From: Candidatus Omnitrophota bacterium
Lineage (GTDB): Bacteria; Omnitrophota; Gorgyraeia; Zapsychrales; Zapsychraceae
Assembly: GCA_016217585.1 (NCBI GenBank)
Contig: JACRHQ010000100.1
Coordinates: 1 to 8,914, forward strand
Direction of reading: 5' to 3'
Length of the DNA stretch: 8,914 nucleotides
The notes under the pieces are model-generated. The model was not told the origin of the DNA and ran no database searches. It saw only the letters and a list, made by a program, of their open reading frames with translations. Of this stretch, positions 205 to 8,914 are shown in pieces. Every line of letters starts with the position of its first letter. The stretch's first letter is position 1. Both the position numbers and the translations under genes were made by a program.

Positions 205-2448
205 ATGAATTTGAAGAATCTTCTGGAAGAACACGGCTTCCCCTCCCCGGCGATCGAACGGATTACCTCAAGCGGCATCAAAGAGCTTTACCCGCCCCAG
301 GCCGAGGCCGTGCGCAAAGGCCTCCTGGCGAAAAAAAATCTCTTGATGGCCGTCCCCACCGCCGCGGGCAAGACGCTGATGGCCGAATTGTGCATGGTCA
401 AATCGATCCTGATGGACAACGGCCGTTGTCTTTATATCGCGCCGCTCAAGGCCCTGGCCAGCGAAAAATACAACGACTTCAAGGAAAAGTACGCCCCCCT
501 GGGGATCGAGGTCGGCCTGGCCATCGGCGACGCGGACAGCCCCGCGGCGCGTCTGGACCGCTACAAGATCCTGGTGGCGACCGCCGAGAAAGTGGATTCG
601 CTCCTGCGTTCGCGCGCCCAGGGGCTGGTCAATTCCCTGTCGGTGGCGGTCCTCGACGAGATCCATTTCATCAACGACGGCTCGCGCGGGCCAACGCTGG
701 AAATCCTGACCGCCCGCCTGCGGCAGTTAAACCCGCAAATCCAAGTCCTCGCCTTAAGCGCGACCATCAGTAACGCCGACGACCTCGCCGACTGGCTTCA
801 AGCCGGGCTTGTTGCCAGCAGCTGGCGGCCGATCCCTTTGAAAGAAGGCGTCTATTTCGACGAGCGGATCCAGTTCCACCGTTACGGCACCAGGATCATC
901 CGGGAAGAATCGCCCGACGACTTGAGCAAGCTCACGCTCGACACGCTGCGCGGCAAGGGGCAGGTCCTGATCTTCGTCAACTCCCGGCGCTCGACCCAGG
1001 CTGTCGCCAGACAGATCGGTCCCGACGTCGCCGGGATATTGAGCGCCGAGGAACGAAAACATCTCCTCGACCTCTCCAAAAAAATCGCCGGCAGCCAGGC
1101 CGACGCGACCAACATCTGCCGCAAACTCGCCGATTCCGTCGTCCAGGGCGTGGCCTTCCACCACGCCGGGCTTAGACCGGACCAGCGGGAGCTTGTTGAA
1201 AAAAATTTCAAGGGCAACCTGATCAAGGTGATCGCCTGCACGCCGACGCTGGCCGCGGGCGTGAACCTGCCGGCCCGAAGAGCCATCGTGCGCGACTGCA
1301 AACGCTACGAGAACGGGATCGGACAGGCCTACATTCCTGTTTCAGAATATAAACAATGTGCTGGTCGGGCAGGCCGCCCGCAATACGACGATTTCGGCGA
1401 GGCGGTCCTGGTGGCCAAGTCCCATTCCGAGGCCTTGACGCTTTTAGAACGCTACGTCCAGGCCTCGCCCGAGCCGATCATCTCGAAGCTGGGCAAGGAA
1501 ACGGCCCTGCGCATCCACGTCCTGTCCTCCATCGCCGGCGGCTACGTCCACGACGTCAAGAGCATGCTGGAGTTTATCCAGCACACCTTCCTCTACCACC
1601 AGAAACTGACGCCCAACCTCCTGGGGTTGATCGGCGAGATCTTCGATTTCCTGCACAAGGAACAGTTCATCGAAAAAAGCAGTTCGACTGCGCTCACTAC
1701 AGGCGGCTACCGGTTTTTCGCCACTCCGCTGGGGAGCCTGACCAGCCGGCTGTACATCGACCCGGCCTCCGCGATCACGCTGCGCTCGGGGTTAACCGCC
1801 GCGCAGAAGAAAGGGACGTTCTCCGCCGTCGGTATTTTGCACCTGGTGACCTGCTGTCCGGACGGTCCCGTGCTCTCCACGGGCAAAAAGGATGCCGAGG
1901 ACCTGGAGAACTTCGCGTCGCGGTTCCGGGAAGAATTCATCCTCACGCCGGAGAACTGGCCGGACCTGCCGATAGGCTCCCGAAGGGAGGACGACTATTA
2001 CGCGTATGCCTCGACGCTCAAGACGACGTCCTGCATCCTGCGGTGGATCGAGGAGGAAAAAGAAGAGCTCATCTGCGAGCAGTTCGGGATCGGCCCGGGG
2101 GACATCTACCGGCACATGGAAGGCGTCCAGTGGCTTTTATACGCGGCGGGGAATATCGCGCACCTGTTTCACCAAAAAAGCCTGACGTCCCAGCTGCAGA
2201 ATTTGCGCACCCGCGTGCGCTACGGCATCAAGGAAGAACTTCTGGAGCTGACGCAGCTCAAAGGCGTGGGCCGCGTGCGCGCGCGCATCCTCTTCGAAAA
2301 AGGGTTCAAACGCCTGAGCGATTTCAGGTCCGCCTCCGTTGATCAGTTGAGCCAGATCAAGCCGATCGGCAGGACCCTCGCCCAGGACATCCTCGCCCAG
2401 ATTGCATCAACCTCAAGCCACAGAACGACCGCTACGCTTCAAAATTGA
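205..2448 (+). CDS. Hel308/Ski2-like superfamily 2 DNA helicase
   Basis: This is an ATP-dependent 3'-5' helicase of the Ski2/Hel308 type; family members act on stalled or damaged replication forks. Starting at ATG 205 it has 747 residues, close to archaeal Hel308 (about 700). Visible motifs, in order: Q-motif region YPPQ (29-32), Walker A AVPTAAGKT (49-57), motif Ia APLKALASEKY (79-89), Walker B as DEIH (151-154), SAT (185-187), motif IV LIFVNSRRS (255-263), HHAGL (319-323), motif V TPTLAAGVNLPAR (346-358) and motif VI QCAGRAGRPQYD (384-395). Near the C-terminus GVGRVRARIL and KPIGRTLAQDI form helix-hairpin-helix-like elements, with the RxRAR signature of Hel308 domain 5. The in-frame GTG at 187 was not chosen because it lies inside the promoter. 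The last dozen residues (SSHRTTATLQN) are low complexity and may come from sequence joined at the AT-rich island. Hel308 is unusual in bacteria; the subfamily call rests on motifs only. Confidence 0.9.
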   Translation: MNLKNLLEEHGFPSPAIERITSSGIKELYPPQAEAVRKGLLAKKNLLMAVPTAAGKTLMAELCMVKSILMDNGRCLYIAPLKALASEKYNDFKEKYAPLGIEVGLAIGDADSPAARLDRYKILVATAEKVDSLLRSRAQGLVNSLSVAVLDEIHFINDGSRGPTLEILTARLRQLNPQIQVLALSATISNADDLADWLQAGLVASSWRPIPLKEGVYFDERIQFHRYGTRIIREESPDDLSKLTLDTLRGKGQVLIFVNSRRSTQAVARQIGPDVAGILSAEERKHLLDLSKKIAGSQADATNICRKLADSVVQGVAFHHAGLRPDQRELVEKNFKGNLIKVIACTPTLAAGVNLPARRAIVRDCKRYENGIGQAYIPVSEYKQCAGRAGRPQYDDFGEAVLVAKSHSEALTLLERYVQASPEPIISKLGKETALRIHVLSSIAGGYVHDVKSMLEFIQHTFLYHQKLTPNLLGLIGEIFDFLHKEQFIEKSSSTALTTGGYRFFATPLGSLTSRLYIDPASAITLRSGLTAAQKKGTFSAVGILHLVTCCPDGPVLSTGKKDAEDLENFASRFREEFILTPENWPDLPIGSRREDDYYAYASTLKTTSCILRWIEEEKEELICEQFGIGPGDIYRHMEGVQWLLYAAGNIAHLFHQKSLTSQLQNLRTRVRYGIKEELLELTQLKGVGRVRARILFEKGFKRLSDFRSASVDQLSQIKPIGRTLAQDILAQIASTSSHRTTATLQN

Positions 2449-2557
2449 TCTGACATTTTTCCGTTGCGACACAGTTAAGCTTTTTAGGTTTCTTTTTAAT
2501 GGCTTTAAGCAATTTTTCCACTTCTTTTCTGATCTTTTCTGTTTTGGTTTTCTTCAT
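2432..2557 (-). CDS. Small lysine-rich ORF coupled to the antitoxin
   Basis: A 41-residue ORF starts at ATG 2557-2555, which overlaps the antitoxin stop codon in an ATGA arrangement, and ends at TAG 2434-2432 inside the 3' end of the opposing helicase gene. The N-terminal two thirds is highly basic (MKKTKTEKIRKEVEKLLKAI, then KKKPKK), likely helical. The tail CVATEKCQINFEA looks unrelated. It may be a third gene of the toxin-antitoxin operon or the start of a longer gene cut at the island border. I do not recognise a family. Confidence 0.4.
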   Translation of the reverse strand: MKKTKTEKIRKEVEKLLKAIKKKPKKLNCVATEKCQINFEA

Positions 2558-2874
2558 GATTGGGCAGGACGTAATTGATAATGAATATGTTCTTTCTTTT
2601 CCAAAGCATAGATCACATCGAACAAATTGGAGGCTGTTGGATTGCCATCGGCGCTGAACATCCGCATCAAACTTTTGGGATCTTTTTTCGTCAATTTACC
2701 TAATTTTTCAAAACCCACAATGGCGTTAATATAATCCCTAAGAAGCGCTTTGCCTGTTTTCAAGTCCCCGGCAAGCATGCATTCAATGCTTTCGCGAAGC
2801 ATCCCCTCTCGAAATTCGGGGTCCTGCAAAGCCCGTGCCTGTACGGTTTCTTTAAAGTCGCGTGTGATCGCCAT
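2554..2874 (-). CDS. HigA-like antitoxin / Cro-type HTH regulator
   Basis: This 106-residue protein resembles the antitoxins paired with HigB/RelE-like toxins, which neutralise the toxin and repress their own operon. The family-typical stretch is INAIVGFEKLGKLTKKDPKS followed by LMRMFSADGNPTASNLFDVI (about residues 49-88), a Cro/Xre-type helix-turn-helix. It lies two bases after the stop of the toxin remnant, giving the toxin-first order of HigBA loci. The start ATG (2874-2872) sits directly behind the toxin. The frame is open and full length for the family (about 100 residues). A 16-bp palindrome at the toxin start is the obvious binding site. With the toxin broken, this gene may survive as a solitary regulator or immunity gene. 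Confidence 0.75.
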   Translation of the reverse strand: MAITRDFKETVQARALQDPEFREGMLRESIECMLAGDLKTGKALLRDYINAIVGFEKLGKLTKKDPKSLMRMFSADGNPTASNLFDVIYALEKKEHIHYQLRPAQS

Positions 2875-2876
2875 CG

Positions 2877-3111
2877 CTATTGCCCCTGATTGCGTTTTTT
2901 ATATTCTTCCCAAAGTTCCGCCGCTTTATCAATATCCCTTTGTCAAAGCGCCCTTAATGGGTTTGAGGCTCGAGGTGTTCCCTTGCGCTATCCGGGTCAA
3001 ATAAGTGTTTACTTTGTTTGCCGCGTGGGCGTCCAGACTTTCAAACCAATCGGCAAAAGGGCTGCCCCCCTCTTCTGTAATGTACTCTTCAACCCTGATA
3101 TAAGGTAACAT
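2877..3111 (-). pseudogene. HigB/RelE-like toxin, broken by an internal deletion
   Basis: Toxins of this family are small ribosome-dependent mRNA interferases. The first frame, from ATG 3111, reads the typical N-terminus YIRVEEYITEEGGSPFADWF and SLDAHAANKVNTYLTRIAQG, then stops after 60 residues. From 2942 down to TAG 2879-2877 another frame encodes the family's C-terminal helix QRDIDKAAELWEEYKKRNQG. Between the two, the middle strands normally holding residues like GPGYRIYFG and LLGGGTKKR (from memory) are absent, about 40 residues. This is a net loss of bases equal to 2 modulo 3, so neither frame gives a whole toxin. The intact ends and the two-base spacing to the antitoxin show a real HigBA operon whose toxin is inactive as assembled. 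Confidence 0.75.
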
Positions 3112-3120
3112 ATATGTTAC
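3105..3120. promoter_or_regulatory. 16-bp perfect palindrome, probable antitoxin operator
   Basis: GTAACATATATGTTAC is its own reverse complement and overlaps the toxin start codon (3111-3109). HigA-type antitoxins commonly repress by binding palindromes at the promoter or start of their own operon, so this is the likely autoregulatory operator. That is inference from position and symmetry. Confidence 0.7.
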
Positions 3121-3295
3121 TTGGATGCAAATTTTATTTCAAATTTTGCTTTATCCAATTGGTTAGATAAAACCTCTGCTATATTTCTGCTTAAAGGGGG
3201 AAATCAAGCGGCAATGGAAGCTGAAAAGGTATCGCAGGGGGAACTACCGTCAACAACAATACATTATCGGCGCGGAAAAGGCAATGAATTCCTTG
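3121..3295. other. AT-rich spacer between the toxin-antitoxin operon and the truncated DUF3175 gene
   Basis: About 170 bases with no recognisable gene. Base composition is lower in G+C than the flanking operon, and the DUF3175 reading frame loses its family similarity near 3296, so this looks like one edge of inserted or rearranged DNA. A short open stretch on the minus strand ends in LSNQLDKAKFEIKFASK just before the palindrome; it could be the decayed end of a lost gene. I see no terminal inverted repeats or target-site duplication. Confidence 0.4.
3131..3158 (-). promoter_or_regulatory. Probable promoter of the toxin-antitoxin operon
   Basis: On the minus strand TTGGAT (3158-3153) and TAAAAT (3136-3131) are 16 bases apart, which puts the transcription start just upstream of the palindrome at 3120-3105. 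An alternative TTGAAA/TAACAT pair with 17-base spacing would have its -10 inside the palindrome but would start transcription beyond the ATG, so it is less likely. Confidence 0.45.
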
Positions 3296-3455
3296 AGACC
3301 TTGCGCCGGCCGCTTGCTTCGGCGGACTCTTTCAGAGAGCGCGCGATGGCCCGCGGGTCGTCCCAGGTAAAAACGCCGGAGTCGAGATCCAGGGCGTTAC
3401 TTTCCCGCGTCACCCGGCCCGACCAATACTTATTTTCTGAACTCGCGCGTGCCAT
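3264..3455 (-). pseudogene. DUF3175 family gene, 3' end lost
   Basis: From ATG 3455 the frame reads MARASSENKYWSGRVTRESN then ALDLDSGVFTWDDPRAIARS and LKESAEASGRRK, the conserved N-terminal half of DUF3175, small proteins of unknown function often of about 90-100 residues. After RRK the sequence (VSRNSLPFPRR, stop at 3266-3264) no longer resembles the family. Its usual second half, around SAMSMLTFYINRAGKNL from memory, is not found in any frame downstream. The start overlaps the hydrolase 3' end by 26 bases, so it was the last gene of that operon. The break coincides with the AT-rich island. Whether the 63-residue product is made is unknown. Confidence 0.7.
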
Positions 3456-4137
3456 TGTCGTCTTTGGCGAAATGCCGCTCGAACCATCGGGACGCGGCGG
3501 CCGCGACCTCTTCCAGGGCGCCGGGCTCTTCAAAAAGATGCGTGGCGTGGGGGACGATGTGAATGTCTTTTTCCACGCGCAGCTCCCGGCAAGCGTCCTG
3601 GTTAAGCTTGATCACCACTGTGTCGTTGCCGCCGACGATCAACAGCGTCGGCGCCCGGACCTTCGCCAGGGCGGCCGCGGCCAAATCCGGCCGCCCGCCG
3701 CGCGAGACAACGGCCCGGATCAACTCCGGTTTTGCGGCCGCCGCCATGAGCGCGGCCGCCGCGCCGGTCGAGGCCCCGAAATATCCAAGGGGGAGTTCGC
3801 GCTTTTGCGCCTGGAGCCGGGCGGTGAGCCAATCCGTCGCCGCGGTCAAACGCCGCGTCAAAAAAGGGATATTAAAACGAAACGCCCCGGTCAGCGCGTC
3901 CCGGGCTTCCTCTTCTTCCGTCAAAAGGTCAAACAGTAAAGAGCCGATTTTCTTCTTAAAAAGACACTCGGCGACAAAACGGTTGCGCGGGCTCAACCGG
4001 CTGCTGCCGCTGCCGTGGGCGAAGATCACGAGGCCGCTCGCCCCGGCCGGCACGCGCAGGTCCCCGCGCAGGCGCGCGTCCTTGAGCGCGATGACCACCG
4101 TCTCTTCCCGGGCCTCCTGGCCGGAAGCTGTTTTCAT
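3430..4137 (-). CDS. Alpha/beta hydrolase, dienelactone hydrolase-like
   Basis: A cytoplasmic hydrolase of 235 residues with no signal peptide. The fold's landmarks are all present: LVIFAHGSGSSRLSPRN with the HGSGSS oxyanion region (about 40-45), nucleophile elbow GYFGASTGAAAAL with Ser in GASTG (about 122), the acid in LLIVGGNDTVV (about 175) and the catalytic His in PHATHLFEE (about 200). The substrate cannot be told. Proteins of this type are often found next to phosphoribosyltransferases and annotated as dienelactone hydrolases. ATG 4137 has a GGAG ribosome binding site eight bases upstream and is 18 bases after the flavin-protein gene, so the two are co-transcribed. Its 3' end overlaps the DUF3175 start. 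Confidence 0.85.
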   Translation of the reverse strand: MKTASGQEAREETVVIALKDARLRGDLRVPAGASGLVIFAHGSGSSRLSPRNRFVAECLFKKKIGSLLFDLLTEEEEARDALTGAFRFNIPFLTRRLTAATDWLTARLQAQKRELPLGYFGASTGAAAALMAAAAKPELIRAVVSRGGRPDLAAAALAKVRAPTLLIVGGNDTVVIKLNQDACRELRVEKDIHIVPHATHLFEEPGALEEVAAAASRWFERHFAKDDNGTREFRK

Positions 4138-4155
4138 TTCTTGTCTCCGCGATAA

Positions 4156-4557
4156 CTACATCCTGACGTCGAGATGAGGCGCCTGCTGGAAATTGAGGAC
4201 CTTTTGGACCCGCACGCGGACTTTGATCTCCTCCTGCGGATAATGCTTTTTGTTCTCCAGCCCCGGCAGGTAACCGTTGAGGACCGCCACGCTTTCAATG
4301 TCCTCGAGCCGGCCGACTAGCTGGTAACCCGTGTCCCTGGCCGGCTGCCAGACAACGAGCGACACGTTCGGGTTCTTTTCGAGGTTGGCAAAGGTGGACT
4401 GGCAGGGCCACATCGTCAGGAGAACCGAGTCGCCGGGGCCCGCCGCGATATCCTTGACGACCGCGATATGCGGCGTCCCCGCGGCGTCCGCCGTCGCCAG
4501 AAACAGATGCCCCACCTCTTTAGCCATCGCGACGGCGCGTTTGATCTGCGGCTGCAT
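4156..4557 (-). CDS. Pyridoxamine 5'-phosphate oxidase-like FMN-binding protein
   Basis: A single-domain split-barrel flavin protein of 133 residues. The N-terminal pattern VGHLFLATADAAGTPHIAVV and the following STFANLEKNPNVSLVVW (about residues 65-80) are typical of the small PNPOx-like family, whose members bind FMN, F420 or haem; the physiological substrate is unclear. Two starts are possible: ATG 4557, used here, or TTG 4566, which overlaps the preceding stop codon and has GAGG five bases upstream. Either way translation is coupled to the upstream gene. It ends with TAG at 4158-4156. Confidence 0.82.
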   Translation of the reverse strand: MQPQIKRAVAMAKEVGHLFLATADAAGTPHIAVVKDIAAGPGDSVLLTMWPCQSTFANLEKNPNVSLVVWQPARDTGYQLVGRLEDIESVAVLNGYLPGLENKKHYPQEEIKVRVRVQKVLNFQQAPHLDVRM

Positions 4558-4562
4558 CTTTC

Positions 4563-5111
4563 TCAATGAGCCCTCAAGGGGACACTATACTTATTTCCGG
4601 GAGGAATTAAGTATCGTGTCCCTCTATTTCCTTTATCGGACTTCGACACAAATATAAGCTCCAAATCACTCGTCATCAAACATGTGCCGTCCTTATTGTT
4701 TTCTAGTTTTATTGTCAGAATCGTCTTGTTTCGCAATCGAAAAAATCTCCGCGCCGCGACGCGAGTGACAGCAGACACCATCTGGAACGTCCCGCCATTC
4801 TCGTCAAATTGCGTCACAGTATACAAGTGCTTTAAATATTGCCCTTGCGACTCTTCTTCATTTGCGATTTCAGTCCCGACGCCGAGCTCTTTGGAGTTTA
4901 ACAAGACGAACTTCTTATGGTCAGGAGTCAACTGAAGATACCAGCGATCCAGGTGTTTCAAGAAATAGAAAACGCAGCCGGGGTCTTTCTTTACAATTGT
5001 CGAGAAGCCAAGACGTATTGTCTTTTCAGGATCCGGAATATTCTCGGCTTTGCCGGGGCTTGCCATATACCCCCAAAAGAAGAGTAAGAATAAACAAATG
5101 AATCTTCTCAT
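4563..5111 (-). CDS. Exported SRPBCC-like protein
   Basis: A 182-residue protein starting at ATG 5111 with a clear secretion signal: MRRFICLFLLFFWGYMASPG followed by KAEN, which would be cut after the Ala. There is no lipobox cysteine. The mature part (IRLGFSTIVKKDPGCVFYFL, then HLDRWYLQLTPDHKKFVLLN) and the later GGTFQMVSAVTRVAARRFFR region resemble START/SRPBCC-type ligand-binding domains (polyketide cyclase-like), a fold call of moderate confidence. An in-frame TTG at 5144 would add 11 residues ahead of the signal and is less likely. It is the first gene of the operon; no convincing promoter or ribosome binding site was seen. It ends in TGA overlapping the possible TTG start of the next gene. 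Confidence 0.65.
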   Translation of the reverse strand: MRRFICLFLLFFWGYMASPGKAENIPDPEKTIRLGFSTIVKKDPGCVFYFLKHLDRWYLQLTPDHKKFVLLNSKELGVGTEIANEEESQGQYLKHLYTVTQFDENGGTFQMVSAVTRVAARRFFRLRNKTILTIKLENNKDGTCLMTSDLELIFVSKSDKGNRGTRYLIPPGNKYSVPLRAH

Positions 5112-5150
5112 TGGTCGAACACTTAGCAATTCCTTCCGTATCAAGAGCCC

Positions 5151-5179
5151 CCTGCCTTTGTGACGCCTGCCTTTAGGCG
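5151..5179. repeat. Short GC-rich repeat with a small hairpin
   Basis: CCTGCCTTT occurs at 5151-5159 and again at 5166-5174, and CGCCT (5164-5168) can pair with AGGCG (5175-5179) around a six-base loop. There is no T-tract on either side, so it is a poor intrinsic terminator. The style recalls the interspersed GC-rich repeats found between genes in many genomes; copies elsewhere cannot be checked here. Confidence 0.4.
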
Positions 5180-5189
5180 AGGCCCGCCC

Positions 5190-5222
5190 CTACGCATGAT
5201 ACCTTACCGCTGACCCTTCGTC
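5190..5222 (-). pseudogene. Orphan second copy of the nuclease gene's last 11 codons
   Basis: These 33 bases read DEGSAVRYHA and a TAG stop on the minus strand. The last 11 codons of the DUF1016N-SNase fusion (6172-6140) read DEGLAVRYEG and TAG; 27 of the 33 bases are identical. Most of the differences in the first eight codons are at third positions, as expected if both once evolved as coding sequence. No further similarity continues upstream, where the HEPN remnant ends at 5234. It looks like the ghost of a second nuclease gene. Confidence 0.5.
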
Positions 5223-5233
5223 CCCGCCGGAAA

Positions 5234-5511
5234 TCACAGCTCGAATTTCAATTCGATCTGCGGGTTGCGCTTTTTGACTTCTTTCAGGACTTCCTTGACC
5301 AGGAGGATCGCGTCGTCAAAGCCCGCCCGGCCTTGAGCATCGCGTTGTAGGCCAGCAAATACGTCGCGCGCTCGGCGATGTCCTTGATCTTTTTGGCTTC
5401 GGCCAGATCGCGCGCGGCCTCCCGCAGAAGTTCTTCCACCTGCGTGACGCCCGCGGGTTGTTTGCGCAACTTGCCGGACTTTTCCAGATCTTTGATGATC
5501 CCTTCAGACAT
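5234..5511 (-). pseudogene. HEPN-domain toxin (HepT-like), broken by an internal deletion
   Basis: HEPN proteins of MNT-HEPN pairs are RNase toxins silenced by their nucleotidyltransferase partner. From ATG 5511 the frame gives MSEGIIKDLEKSGKLRKQPA, then VEELLREAARDLAEAKKIKD and ERATYLLAYNAMLKAGRA, a typical HEPN N-terminal half, and then runs out of frame to a stop at 5286-5284. From about 5320 another frame encodes FDDAILLVKEVLKEVKKRNP and QIELKFEL to TGA 5236-5234, the family's last helix and tail. The middle, which should hold the catalytic R-x4-6-H motif, is missing, a net loss equal to 1 modulo 3. The 8-base overlap with the restored MNT frame is typical of these operons. Confidence 0.72.
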
Positions 5512-6067
5512 CGAGCCGGCCTTTCAGCATAAAGGGGCGTTCTTTGAGGACCGTGTTGAGAAATCCCCCCGCCTTTTTCTTTTCCATCTGGAACTCTTCT
5601 TCCGTGTACGCGGTGAAATTTATCTACCGCCGGAGTCTGGATTCCAGGCCGCGGACCTGGCGGGTGAATTTATCCCGGGGGAACTGGCCCACCACGACCA
5701 GATCGACGTCGGAAGCCGCGTTCTCCTGTTCTTTGGCGTAAGAGCCGTAGATAAACGCGCGGTTGATCCCCGGATAAGCGTCAATGACGCCCTTTAACGA
5801 CCCGGCAACGCCCGTAGTCTTAAAAACGATCCTTTTGAGTTCATCAAACAAAGAATATTGGGAGTTCAGCACGTAAAACTTCGAATTCCCCCGGACACGG
5901 GACGTGAACAGGCCTTCCCTTTCCAGTTTTCTTAATTCGCGCGACAAGTTGCCGGCGTCTTCCTGGATGAGGCCGGCCAATTCCCGGACATAGAAGTTCT
6001 CGCCCGCGTGGCTGAAGGTGAAGGCCAGGAGCCTTCTTCTTAATCTGGTGTTCAGGAAAGGGAGCAT
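5504..6067 (-). pseudogene. Winged-helix/MNT nucleotidyltransferase (MntA-like antitoxin) with an in-frame TAG
   Basis: A two-domain protein. Residues 1-80 form an ArsR-like winged helix (NFYVRELAGLIQEDAGNLSR, then LRKLEREGLF). Residues 100-130 form a minimal nucleotidyltransferase with GSYAKEQENAASDVDLVVVG: the GS pair at 108-109 and the metal-binding D120 and D122. In known MntA-HepT pairs the MNT enzyme AMPylates and inactivates the HEPN toxin. The frame is interrupted by TAG (5626-5624) after residue 147. The same frame continues INFTAYTEEEFQMEKKKAGG and on to TGA 5506-5504, reading exactly like the expected family C-terminus, with TAG where Glu (GAG) is common. Restored length is about 187 residues. 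ATG 6067 has AGGA six bases upstream. A single base change or error explains the break; otherwise a 147-residue product is made. Confidence 0.75.
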
Positions 6068-6078
6068 GATTAGTCCTA

Positions 6079-6117
6079 TGTTGTATATATTACATCAATC
6101 GTTGTATATCATACAAC
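6079..6117. promoter_or_regulatory. Tandem operators for the winged-helix MNT protein
   Basis: A perfect 7-bp inverted repeat, GTTGTAT (6101-6107) with ATACAAC (6111-6117), covers the -10 box. A second, imperfect copy, TGTTGTA (6079-6085) with TACATCA (6091-6097), has six of seven bases paired and lies downstream in the leader. The centres are 21 bp apart, two helical turns, so two repressor dimers could bind the same face. The winged helix of the first gene is the likely ligand, giving autorepression. Confidence 0.65.
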
Positions 6118-6135
6118 AGTACTTCTTCTTGTCAA
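6108..6135 (-). promoter_or_regulatory. Strong sigma-70-like promoter of the MNT-HEPN operon
   Basis: On the minus strand, consensus TTGACA (6135-6130) and TATGAT (6113-6108) are 16 bases apart. Transcription would start near 6101, about 35 bases before ATG 6067. The -35 box begins five bases after the stop codon of the upstream nuclease gene, so the module carries its own promoter. Confidence 0.75.
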
Positions 6136-6139
6136 GGCC

Positions 6140-7252
6140 CTACCCCTCATACCTCACCGCTAACCCTTCATCTAACAACCTCTGATTCAAGTACTCGCCT
6201 TCTGCCGTGACTTTGGCCGGGTCTTGTTCGGCCGGTGAGAAAAATATGTCCGCCAGATAGCGGCCGTGCAAATCCGACCAGTAGCTTTTAACGATAATAA
6301 AATCGCAGGGTTGAAGGGCGGCTTCCACAAACGCTTTGGCCTCCCTGCCTTTGGCCGTGTTGAGTTCGGGGCAATCGATCCCGCGCAGGCGCAGTTTCTG
6401 GCGGGTAACGGCTTTAAGGCCCAGGTCGATCTCGGCGCGCAGGGTGTCGCCGTCAATGACTTTCACGACGAGCGCTTTGTAGACGTACAGATCTTTAGGC
6501 GTGCGCCGGCTGGCTGTAATGTCAAAGCCGCCGCCGGCCGGCACGGTTTCAACCACGGGACTTTTAAGCGCGGCGGGGGAAGAAACCCTCGCCGGACGCC
6601 ACATGCTGAACCCGCAGTCGACAAACACCTCTCCTTGATCCGCCGGGATGAGCGCCTGCGCCAGCTTGTAGCTATAGAGCGTGCCGCGGGTGACATTAAG
6701 TTTAGGTGATAGGTGATTGGTGTCAGGTGATAGTTGGCGGCGGTGGCCGTTGAAGAAAACGCGTTTAATGCCGTCGGCGCGCAGGTGTTCAACCAAGTCA
6801 CGCGAGCTCCAGTCTTCCTTAATGGTTTTACGTTCGTAAGCCTGCCGCTCTTGTTTATCCTCAATCGTAGAAAGGACCTGGTAGCGTGTCCAGTCCAATT
6901 CAGCAGGCGCCTGCTGAATTGGGTAGGCGATGTAGAACCGGCGCATATAGCGTAAATTCGTCGCGGAAAACCCGTCGCCGTATTTTTGGGTGAGGTGCTG
7001 GGAGATCTGTGCCAGGAGCGCTTCGCCGTACTGGGCGCGGAGATTGTTCTTCTGCTCGACGGTGACGATCCGCTTGCCGATTTCCCAGTAGGCGCGGGTG
7101 ACAATGAGGTTCAGCGCGCGGCTGCTTTCCTTTTGGGCCCGGGTGTAAATGGCGTCGATCTGCTCCAGGAGGGTCTGGTATTCCGAGGCTTTCAGCGCGC
7201 CGGGCATAAGGGTTTTATAATCCAAACCGCGGGAAGTGTCAATGTGTTTCAC
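6140..7252 (-). CDS. DUF1016-N / staphylococcal nuclease-like fusion protein
   Basis: A 370-residue protein, intact. Residues about 22-165 match the DUF1016 (YhcG) N-terminal domain (YWEIGKRIVTVEQ, then LRAQYGEALLAQISQHLTQK and TNLRYMRRFY), which normally precedes a PD-(D/E)XK nuclease. Here a small linker domain (RGTLYSYKLA to VFVDCGF, about 189-215) and a thermonuclease domain (about 256-370) follow instead. The nuclease residues are kept: VIDGDT (D267, D269), LRLRGIDCPE (R288, D293, E296, the equivalents of R35, D40 and E43 of the S. aureus enzyme) and LHGRYLADI (R331, as R87). It should therefore be an active Ca2+-dependent-type nuclease with a DNA- or protein-binding N-terminus; no signal peptide, so intracellular. 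GTG 7252 is used; ATG 7207 (residue 16) is possible and neither has a good ribosome binding site. Residues 172-184 come from a heptamer repeat. Role unknown; defence is an inference. Confidence 0.85.
   Translation of the reverse strand: MKHIDTSRGLDYKTLMPGALKASEYQTLLEQIDAIYTRAQKESSRALNLIVTRAYWEIGKRIVTVEQKNNLRAQYGEALLAQISQHLTQKYGDGFSATNLRYMRRFYIAYPIQQAPAELDWTRYQVLSTIEDKQERQAYERKTIKEDWSSRDLVEHLRADGIKRVFFNGHRRQLSPDTNHLSPKLNVTRGTLYSYKLAQALIPADQGEVFVDCGFSMWRPARVSSPAALKSPVVETVPAGGGFDITASRRTPKDLYVYKALVVKVIDGDTLRAEIDLGLKAVTRQKLRLRGIDCPELNTAKGREAKAFVEAALQPCDFIIVKSYWSDLHGRYLADIFFSPAEQDPAKVTAEGEYLNQRLLDEGLAVRYEG
6704..6738. repeat. Five imperfect 7-bp repeats inside the nuclease fusion gene
   Basis: Units AGGTGAT, AGGTGAT, TGGTGTC, AGGTGAT and AGTTGGC lie end to end at 6704-6738. 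On the coding strand they give ATCACCT repeats and encode the linker stretch QLSPDTNHLSPKL between the DUF1016 and nuclease parts. Tracts of this kind recur within genes of some bacteria and expand or shrink by slippage. Confidence 0.7.
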
Positions 7253-7282
7253 AAAGGCGGGCGAAAGGCCGGGAGGCCCGGG

Positions 7283-7567
7283 TCAAGCCAACTTTGCCCG
7301 GTGGGTCAGGATATTCGCCCAGGTGAACATCTCTTCGGCCCAGGTTTCATTGAAATCAGAAACGTCCCTGGACCCGGCAAATGTCTTTTGAAAGGCGTCA
7401 AAAGTTTTTTGAAAACGCGCGGTTTTCGGCGCCCGCTCCAGGGCATTGACGTACTCTTCGGTCTCGGCCATAAACTGCCTGAGGCGATTATGCCGGCCTT
7501 CCAGCGCCCAGCGCCCCAGCCGTCCCAGATTCACCGCGATATTCAAGGTCAATTCCCGGGCGTCCAT
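7283..7567 (-). CDS. Conserved-looking small helical protein of unknown function
   Basis: A 94-residue protein I cannot assign. It appears all alpha: MDARELTLNIAVNLGRLGRW, then HNRLRQFMAETEEYVNALER, a pair of FQKTFDAFQKTF helices and a C-terminal AEEMFTWANILTHRAKLA, suggesting a four-helix bundle. It has no signal peptide or membrane segment. ATG 7567 follows three bases after the stop of the DUF5674 remnant, with AGG six bases ahead. The nuclease fusion begins 30 bases after its TGA (7285-7283). It therefore sits between the two in one operon and could be a regulator or partner of the nuclease. Confidence 0.65.
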   Translation of the reverse strand: MDARELTLNIAVNLGRLGRWALEGRHNRLRQFMAETEEYVNALERAPKTARFQKTFDAFQKTFAGSRDVSDFNETWAEEMFTWANILTHRAKLA

Positions 7568-7570
7568 AAT

Positions 7571-7848
7571 TTACCTGATCAGGCCTCGGATGATCTTCTC
7601 CATTTTCTGGCGTATCGTTCGATCGAGGACCTCACGGCTTGTATTGCCCTGTCGCGGCCGTATGTTGATCATCGAATCAAAGTCGACTTCCCCCGTCTCC
7701 AGATCGATGCCGCCGCCCCAAAGGTCTTCCCGCCGGCCGCAAGGATCTCTTTGGGGACATCCACGACCACTTTCACGTAGCCCTGGAAATCTTCCGCGAT
7801 TTTCTTCAATGTTTGCCCGTCTGCCTTTGCCCGGATAATAACGATCAT
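7571..7848 (-). pseudogene. DUF5674 family gene, broken by an internal deletion
   Basis: DUF5674 proteins are small (roughly 110 residues) and of unknown function. From ATG 7848 the frame reads MIVIIRAKADGQTLKKIAED then FQGYVKVVVDVPKEILAAGG, the normal family N-terminus, and then runs on to a stop at 7671-7669 (59 residues in all). From 7729 another frame reads EDLWGGGIDLETGEVDFDSM and INIRPRQGNTSREVLD to TAA 7573-7571, the normal C-terminal half. About 16 residues around the expected LHADGE...LLEDGSKQE segment are missing, a net loss equal to 1 modulo 3. Apart from this the two halves look well conserved, so the break is recent or is an assembly error. Confidence 0.72.
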
Positions 7849-7913: not shown

Positions 7914-8654
7914 TCACAGGTAAGCGGCCGTGCGGATACGTCTCTCCAAGTGATACACGAGGAACTTGTTGAGGATGTACTTTAAGTCCCCGCGCACCGT
8001 TTTGGTGAGGCCCAGCCGCAGGCTTTTTTCCCACGGGCTGGCCTCGATATGGAGCATCGTCGCGACCGTCCCCCGGGCGATCGGGGTGAGGTTCGACTCC
8101 CTCGCCTCCCTCGTCGGACAACGGCCGCAGACCAGCCCCCCGGCCTTGAGGCTGAAATACGCCTTCCCTTCCACTTTTTTCCGGCACTTCACGCACGCGT
8201 CGATGTGGGGACGGAACCCGGAGAACAGCAAAATCTTGATCTGGAAAATGTGCACCAGCCGGTCGATGTCGGGGAAGGATTCCAGGCCCTTGAGATAGTC
8301 CAGCAAAAGCTGGTAAATCTTCACGTTGGGCTCTTCGGCCGGGACGATGGTGTCGACCAGTTCCAGCGCGTAGTGGGCGGCGAGCGTGCGGCGGTAATCT
8401 TCCCGGACCGGGAAAAAGAACTGTTTGAGGTCGCACTGGCTGATCAGGTGCAGGTCCGAACGCCGGTACTGGTAATAGACGATGTCGTTGACGGAGAATT
8501 TGTCGACGTGGCTGCCGAACTTCCGGCGGTCCTTGCGGATGCCTTTCATGACCCCTTTGACCTTGCCGTACTCTTTGGTGAAAAATACGGCGATACGGCT
8601 GGTCTCGCGCAAGTCGAATGTCTTGAGGACAATGCCTTCAGTTTTGAGGATCAT
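7914..8654 (-). CDS. recO: DNA repair protein RecO
   Basis: RecO works with RecR (and RecF) to load RecA on SSB-coated single-stranded DNA during recombinational repair. At 246 residues it has normal length. The N-terminus MILKTEGIVLKTFDLRETSR followed by FTKEYGKVKGVMKGIR is the typical OB-fold start. The helical core is followed by a zinc-binding motif with Cys 154, 157, 176 and 179 (ACVKC ... VCGRC), which some RecO proteins retain and others lose. The start ATG (8654-8652) overlaps the ybeY stop in an ATGA arrangement, so the two are translationally coupled, a common neighbourhood in bacteria. Confidence 0.93.
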   Translation of the reverse strand: MILKTEGIVLKTFDLRETSRIAVFFTKEYGKVKGVMKGIRKDRRKFGSHVDKFSVNDIVYYQYRRSDLHLISQCDLKQFFFPVREDYRRTLAAHYALELVDTIVPAEEPNVKIYQLLLDYLKGLESFPDIDRLVHIFQIKILLFSGFRPHIDACVKCRKKVEGKAYFSLKAGGLVCGRCPTREARESNLTPIARGTVATMLHIEASPWEKSLRLGLTKTVRGDLKYILNKFLVYHLERRIRTAAYL

Positions 8655-8914
8655 ATTTTACAGGTTATCCGGATACCCTTAAACTTTCCCAAATACTCCA
8701 AAATTTCCTGCTCCTTGGCGCGCATGGCGCGAATGTCCGCCGGAGCATGGTCGTCAAAGCCCAAGAGATGCAGGATCCCGTGCGCGACGTACAAGACGAG
8801 TTCTTGGGCCAACGAAGTGTCGCAGCTTTTGGCGTTACGGACGGCGGCGTCGACGCAGATCGCGATGTCGCCGTTCACCCGGCCGGGGCGCTTGTCGTCG
8901 CTCAAGTCAAAGGC
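8651..8914 (-). CDS. ybeY: Endoribonuclease/rRNA maturation factor YbeY, 3' part (runs off the right edge)
   Basis: YbeY is a metal-dependent RNase for 16S rRNA 3'-end maturation and ribosome quality control. The visible 87 residues begin inside the protein (AFDLSDD at the window edge; the TTG at 8905 is the internal Leu, not a start). GDIAICVDAA is followed by the metal motif HGILHLLGFDDH and the C-terminal helix ADIRAMRAKEQEILEYLGKF. In most homologues the motif is HGxLHLxGYDH. Here an Asp sits where the third His is usual, and a His follows it, a variant I have seen in other GC-rich lineages. The last four bases overlap recO. Confidence 0.92.
   Translation of the reverse strand, partial: AFDLSDDKRPGRVNGDIAICVDAAVRNAKSCDTSLAQELVLYVAHGILHLLGFDDHAPADIRAMRAKEQEILEYLGKFKGIRITCKI

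Follow-up and report, generated by a model that had tools for sequence, protein, structure and literature searches.

In this study, we found that three genes in the accessory pocket of a metagenomic contig have each lost an internal segment, and the best explanation appears to be that illegitimate recombination removed an out-of-frame middle from each gene and thereby inactivated recently acquired toxin-antitoxin cargo, a reading that we consider probable. The window, which here means the whole stretch of DNA analyzed, is the entire contig C48 (8,914 bases) of a metagenome-assembled genome (0.999 Mb, 198 contigs, 61% complete). A relative of the same genus (G005) carries full-length HigB-like (108 aa), HEPN (155 aa), MNT (187 aa), DUF5674 (109 aa) and DUF3175 (121 aa) proteins. 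Comparison with these intact orthologues confirmed the initial annotation in its central claim, namely that the HigB-like, HEPN and DUF5674 genes retain both ends in two frames with the centre missing; the losses amount to 101, 190 and 52 nt, respectively, none of which is a multiple of three.

The accessory genes lie within a convergent pair of core genes: a Ski2-like DEAD-box helicase gene on the left (187-2448, + strand; Pfam DEAD, Helicase_C and Helicase_dom4_arc) faces recO-ybeY on the right (7914-8914, - strand), with recO itself at 7914-8654 (- strand; Pfam RecO_N and RecO_C). That the core genes beside the lesions are intact, as had been stated, was borne out for the helicase and RecO, which are open and keep their frame when compared with G005; ybeY is open as well, but the contig end cuts the gene. 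Both helicase and recO were found in 15 of the 28 RecO loci examined, were convergent in all 15, and were separated by gaps ranging from 32 to 5,915 bp.

The HigB/RelE-like toxin gene (2880-3111, - strand) is broken by the absence of 101 nt at about 2942-2945. Residues 2-53 and 88-108 of the 108-aa G005 relative remain, in two frames, and residues 54-87 are gone, which amounts to roughly a third of its length; the missing centre was thus correctly recognized at the outset, with 34 residues measured instead of the about 40 first estimated. The junction shares 0-2 bases, and the one or two bases that are ambiguous in comparison with G005, G001 and G030 may be shared or filler bases. The intact G005 protein scores 94.8 bits against TIGR02683, above the cutoff of 62.85, and falls slightly under the cutoff for Pfam Gp49 (22.1 vs 23.9). 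In the window, the 101-nt loss and the two frames leave no complete HigB-like open reading frame, and no RelE-type Pfam model matched the N-terminal piece. Adjoining this gene is an intact putative antitoxin gene (2554-2874, - strand), which is assigned this role by conserved adjacency: it neighbours the HigB-like gene in eight of nine HigB-bearing loci examined, the exception being a distant copy in G060. The putative antitoxin has no Pfam or NCBIfam match above cutoff and is 95% identical to its G005 counterpart over 106 residues (dN/dS 0.02-0.07). The HigB-like gene also keeps a palindrome at its start (3105-3120), which was read in both the window and G005 and is likely the operator of that gene.

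Positions 2342-3139 of the window, which comprise the HigBA cassette and the final ~100 bases of the gene for the helicase, are 90-91% identical to a copy in G001 (L055). This copy sits ~1.7 kb beyond the helicase match of G001, and the helicase itself is 74% identical, which suggests that HigBA could be a mobile cassette carrying a copy of the helicase tail.

The HEPN toxin gene (5237-5511, - strand) lacks 190 nt after 5320/5321, and 61 of 61 bases at the junction match G005 on one side or the other, with a single shared base. Residues 1-65 and 122-155 of 155 remain; here, too, the missing centre had been recognized, and its size is 56 residues (66-121) in place of the roughly 50 that had been claimed. 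The lost residues include conserved positions (QH at 79 and RRKRH at 105-109). When the Rx4-6H motif was looked for, the RRKRH stretch and QH were found in G005, that H being N in G010, G023 and G015. Taken at the level of sequence, the missing parts of both HEPN and the HigB-like protein look functional. The neighbouring gene for the MNT nucleotidyltransferase antitoxin (5507-6067, - strand; identified by Pfam and by PADLOC as PDC-M05A) does contain the one nonsense codon noticed initially, an in-frame stop at 5624-5626; apart from this stop, the 187-residue protein can be aligned from end to end (tblastn, 91% identity across residues 1-187). Neither frame of the HEPN-MNT operon in the window is therefore complete, 190 nt being gone from HEPN and MNT being interrupted by the stop. 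The HEPN and MNT genes are adjacent in both the window and G005 and overlap in the latter, where the two domains score above their cutoffs (PF05168, 23.1 vs 22; NTP_transf_2, 31.7 vs 21). Since G005 MNT scores 23.1 against the MntA model NF047752, under the cutoff of 60, we refer to it as an MNT-domain partner and do not file it as MntA.

Some additional features of this part of the pocket were observed. First, the cargo block that holds HEPN-MNT also contains an intact gene (6140-7252, - strand) for a 370-aa protein in which a DUF1016 N-terminal domain is joined to a staphylococcal-nuclease domain, an arrangement common to the window and G005 (L053 3462-4529, + strand). The usual nuclease half of DUF1016 proteins differs from the staphylococcal-nuclease domain, and the fusion may represent a domain swap. 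Second, a 45-base palindromic element (GGGACAC...GTGTCCC) occurs at 4578-4622 of the window, at about 7945-7988 of L053, and also in L071 and L070; its copies are found in G005, G001 and one further contig of the window's genome, and it resembles a small mobile element or REP-type repeat. Third, G005 has an intact pair of MazE-type antitoxin and PIN-domain toxin after HEPN (L053 5812-6446), and a different 193-aa protein without a Pfam family occupies this position in the window (4563-5144).

The third internal loss affects the DUF5674 gene (7571-7848, - strand), in which 52 nt (about 17 codons) are missing at about 7726-7735, compared with the 16 residues proposed initially. An approximate CCGGC direct repeat of ~5 bases can be seen by eye at this junction, where the reference is only ~70% identical. 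The G005 copy scores 99.5 against the Pfam model (cutoff 27), and the N-terminal piece of the window alone scores 21.2, below the cutoff. The DUF3175 remnant (3294-3428, - strand) has indeed lost its end: the profile is covered at positions 1-45 of 86 in the window vs 2-86 in G005. The cut falls near 3292-3299, at the join between the HigBA-type sequence and the block that follows, where ~3 bases appear to be shared on visual inspection. Two further stretches are missing from the window, 23 nt after 3432 and 16 nt after 3465, near the end of the hydrolase gene and the start of DUF3175. The initial description of the damaged genes as unrelated needs qualifying: the blocks that contain them are spread over three different contigs in G005, and DUF5674 is not a known toxin. 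DUF5674 weakens the deletion reading, since besides not being known as a toxin it belongs to a block that is not young (dS of 1.39 for a neighbouring 96-aa protein). The unstable pocket that holds the toxin genes also contains DUF5674 and DUF3175, which are probably bystanders.

Considered together, the overlaps at the HigB-like, HEPN and DUF5674 junctions (0-2, 1 and about 5 bases, respectively) fit the expectation for illegitimate recombination. Site-specific or repeat-driven excision was rejected, because the overlaps differ among the three sites. The 8-base word GTCAAAGC occurs at 2942, 5315, 6521 and 8753 of the window, that is, at two of the three junctions and in two other places; as it also turns up 12 times in 250 kb from other contigs, its presence at the junctions is likely due to chance.

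It might be argued that the split genes are still used, either through programmed frameshifting or as short functional proteins, given that both ends are conserved and open. However, the lost parts hold conserved positions, such as HEPN residues 66-121 with QH and RRKRH, and the missing residues could not be restored by frameshifting. The comparison with family members, proposed initially as a check for normal short forms, was also carried out: near full-length proteins accounted for 120 of 120 relatives in each family, i.e. HigB-like (105-126 aa; best 120 of 1791 matches), HEPN (153-163 aa; best 120 of 499) and DUF5674 (107-163 aa; best 120 of 832), in a search where proteins shorter than 0.55 of the query length were not candidates. 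On these matches listed, the idea that the short forms are normal family members was rejected, and no relatives carrying the same short forms under constraint were seen. We thus find it hardly credible that the split genes remain in use.

A more serious alternative is that the losses arose in the assembly, an assembler having bridged low-coverage or strain-variable stretches and dropped the middles, possibly as a fault local to this contig. The genome is fragmented, the three losses are unlike in size and overlap, and apart from the one break the pieces are free of decay; a low dN/dS would also be expected from assembly error. To evaluate this alternative, the open frames of G005 were compared with 305 kb of this assembly in 61 contigs (the window among them; 18 masked). 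A strict overlap filter against antisense shadow frames then left 23 contigs besides the window with 120 orthologous frames (30,416 residues), mostly conserved genes that say little about accessory genes elsewhere. Outside the window, no coding loss of more than 2 nt was present in these 120 frames, as against ~35 losses expected at the window's own rate, a rate that is inflated by the choice of the window for its damaged look. Eight differences outside the window were still flagged under the strict filter (L173 ~3719, L174 ~3165, L081 ~5648, L090 ~6813, L079 ~8933, L143 ~2389 and ~3615, and L134 ~3960). In each, either 1-2 nt are apparently missing or 4-264 nt are added, and the frame changes in several; most involve a few nt, and in one case the extra 264 nt are in frame. 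Some of them could be small frameshifts, which would speak for assembly error. A looser count covered 128 frames (31,693 residues) and included some antisense shadow frames; its apparent 89-nt loss outside the window was discarded, as it corresponds to palindromic sequence between two genes in G005 and is not coding. Under the strict filter, a 13-nt difference on L175 disappears as well, and so does the window's own HEPN frame.

Other observations also argue against a general assembly fault. The window contains no N run, and the helicase and RecO on the same contig keep their frame. The operon with the HEPN loss also carries a lesion of another kind, the nonsense codon in MNT, and overlaps of 0-5 bases would not be long enough for a k-mer join unless reads supported it. 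General assembly damage is thus disfavoured by the clean control frames, the MNT nonsense codon and the toxin breakage seen in other genomes (G046, G015 and G022; see below), and we consider an artefact as the source of the losses unlikely. The two possibilities raised by the initial annotation, deletion of toxin-like cargo and assembler collapse, can therefore be separated to this extent: the former is better supported, and the latter is disfavoured as a general fault, the arguments bearing less on a fault confined to this contig. The losses are probably real in the organism, and the toxins of the window, as predicted from their sequences, are probably now non-functional. More generally, comparing a suspect region with the remaining contigs of its assembly is a way of telling true deletions from assembly faults.

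Synonymous divergence from G005 differed between the core genes and the toxin-bearing blocks. The dS values were 0.88 for the helicase and 1.10 for RecO, in contrast with 0.31 for the putative antitoxin and 0.24 for the HigB ends, 0.30 for MNT and 0.13 for the HEPN ends, and 0.19, 0.18 and 0.39 for the hydrolase, PNPOx and DUF1016-staphylococcal-nuclease genes, respectively. The divergence of the toxin-bearing blocks is thus lower by a factor of two to eight than that of the genes flanking the pocket, and these values (0.13-0.39 vs 0.88-1.10) suggest that the HigBA and HEPN-MNT blocks were likely transferred between lineages after the core genes had split. No comparable indication was obtained for the DUF5674 block. 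Carriage of the cargo by phage or plasmid was rejected, since megablast, which detects near matches only, gave no plasmid match to the window, and the viral contigs contained no close relative of the HigB-like or HEPN queries.

The retained toxin ends have dN/dS values of 0.07-0.23, similar to the 0.18 of the intact HigB pair of G005 and G001, so the damage to the toxin genes looks recent. This recent appearance would also be compatible with a population polymorphism, in which intact and deleted alleles coexist and the assembly displays the deleted one, and close intact proteins do exist in public data (P0001 and P0330). For example, P0330, the nearest intact DUF5674 protein among the matches listed, shows 95% identity to one piece in the window and 94% to the other. 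However, an exact match over a whole retained piece was seen for none of the 360 intact proteins listed, the best reaching about 95%, which indicates that the intact proteins found come from other strains or species. A polymorphism of this kind appears quite improbable.

We also surveyed 81 genomes of the order for toxin matches at E up to 1e-10, with the window's own genome included as G000. HEPN was broken in 3 of 14 loci (G000, G015 and G046) and the HigB-like gene in 2 of 18 (G000 and G022). A full MNT gene lies beside the HEPN remnant in G046, and a full putative antitoxin gene beside the HigB-like remnant in G022, both genomes belonging to genera other than that of the window; no MNT was found in the 1.5 kb upstream of the broken HEPN in G015. 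RecO was internally broken in none of the 48 genomes with a match (55 searched; the seven without a match were left out). The difference in breakage between toxins and RecO gave p = 0.008 in a Fisher test and a borderline 0.056 without the window's genome, for loci that are not independent. Several cases were decided individually. A HEPN match in G013 with a flagged TAA aligns over residues 2-153 without a stop and was counted as intact, as was a HigB match in G060 whose flagged TAA is a stop at the very end. A HEPN fragment at a contig end in G027 fell below the survey threshold and was not counted, and a DUF5674 fragment in G003 sits at a contig start. The RecO match of G018, which lacks the first eight residues and, provided that its record is L031, lies at a contig edge, was counted as unbroken. 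The HigB-like break falls within about two codons of residue 53/54 both in the window (2942) and in G022 (L216, G022:C68). That toxin genes are the preferred targets of internal deletion throughout the order, with antitoxins kept as standing anti-addiction factors and breakpoints recurring at the same place, seems doubtful to us.

Under the preferred reading, inactivation of acquired cargo by deletion, HigBA and HEPN-MNT blocks would recently have entered a variable pocket, and the middles would have been lost by illegitimate recombination, through end-joining or slippage between sites with few or no bases in common. Such deletions may have been favoured or tolerated, the cargo being selfish. 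The toxin would be knocked out first and the antitoxin afterwards. The HigB-like operon might represent the earlier stage, with the toxin broken and the putative antitoxin and operator retained, and the HEPN-MNT operon would be one step on, its antitoxin gene carrying a stop as well; such a stop in MNT would be tolerable only once the HEPN toxin is dead. The window would thus capture an early phase in the decay of toxin-antitoxin cargo, the damage being confined to the toxin in one operon and extending to the antitoxin in the other. If the deletions are true, the toxin-first order of loss could be examined across the whole uncultured group.

Truncation of toxins and orphan antitoxins have both been reported before, so the process of toxin decay is already known and the window is another case of it. 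Parts of one report on Pseudomonas and E. coli (PMC7280312) describe chromosomal toxin-antitoxin loci whose toxin genes are truncated or absent, with reduced toxicity and spread by horizontal transfer, and mention quick inactivation of a burdensome toxin as an unpublished observation. Those degenerate loci, as far as that report describes them, involve many strains and toxicity tests, whereas the present case is a single metagenome assembly in which three losses share a pocket, as seen at the sequence level. Orphan antitoxins are abundant in E. coli lineages according to portions of another report (PMC10790755), with anti-addiction as one suggested role. The likeness to them is that the antitoxin outlasts the toxin, and the difference is that the toxin remnant of the window still adjoins the putative antitoxin. 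As for families, the HigB-like gene resembles TIGR02683 of the HigB/RelE type in that the intact G005 copy passes the NCBIfam cutoff, whereas the window copy lacks its middle and its partner passes no family cutoff. Finally, the HEPN-MNT operon shares with the type VII systems, in what the relevant sections of two reports describe (PMC7641770, PMC3710099), the neighbouring MNT and HEPN genes, which overlap in G005. It differs in that QH lies upstream of an R-rich stretch with no clear Rx4-6H, and in that both operon genes are broken in the window; HEPN variants without the motif histidine, in which an upstream histidine may serve instead, are described in part of the latter report (PMC3710099).
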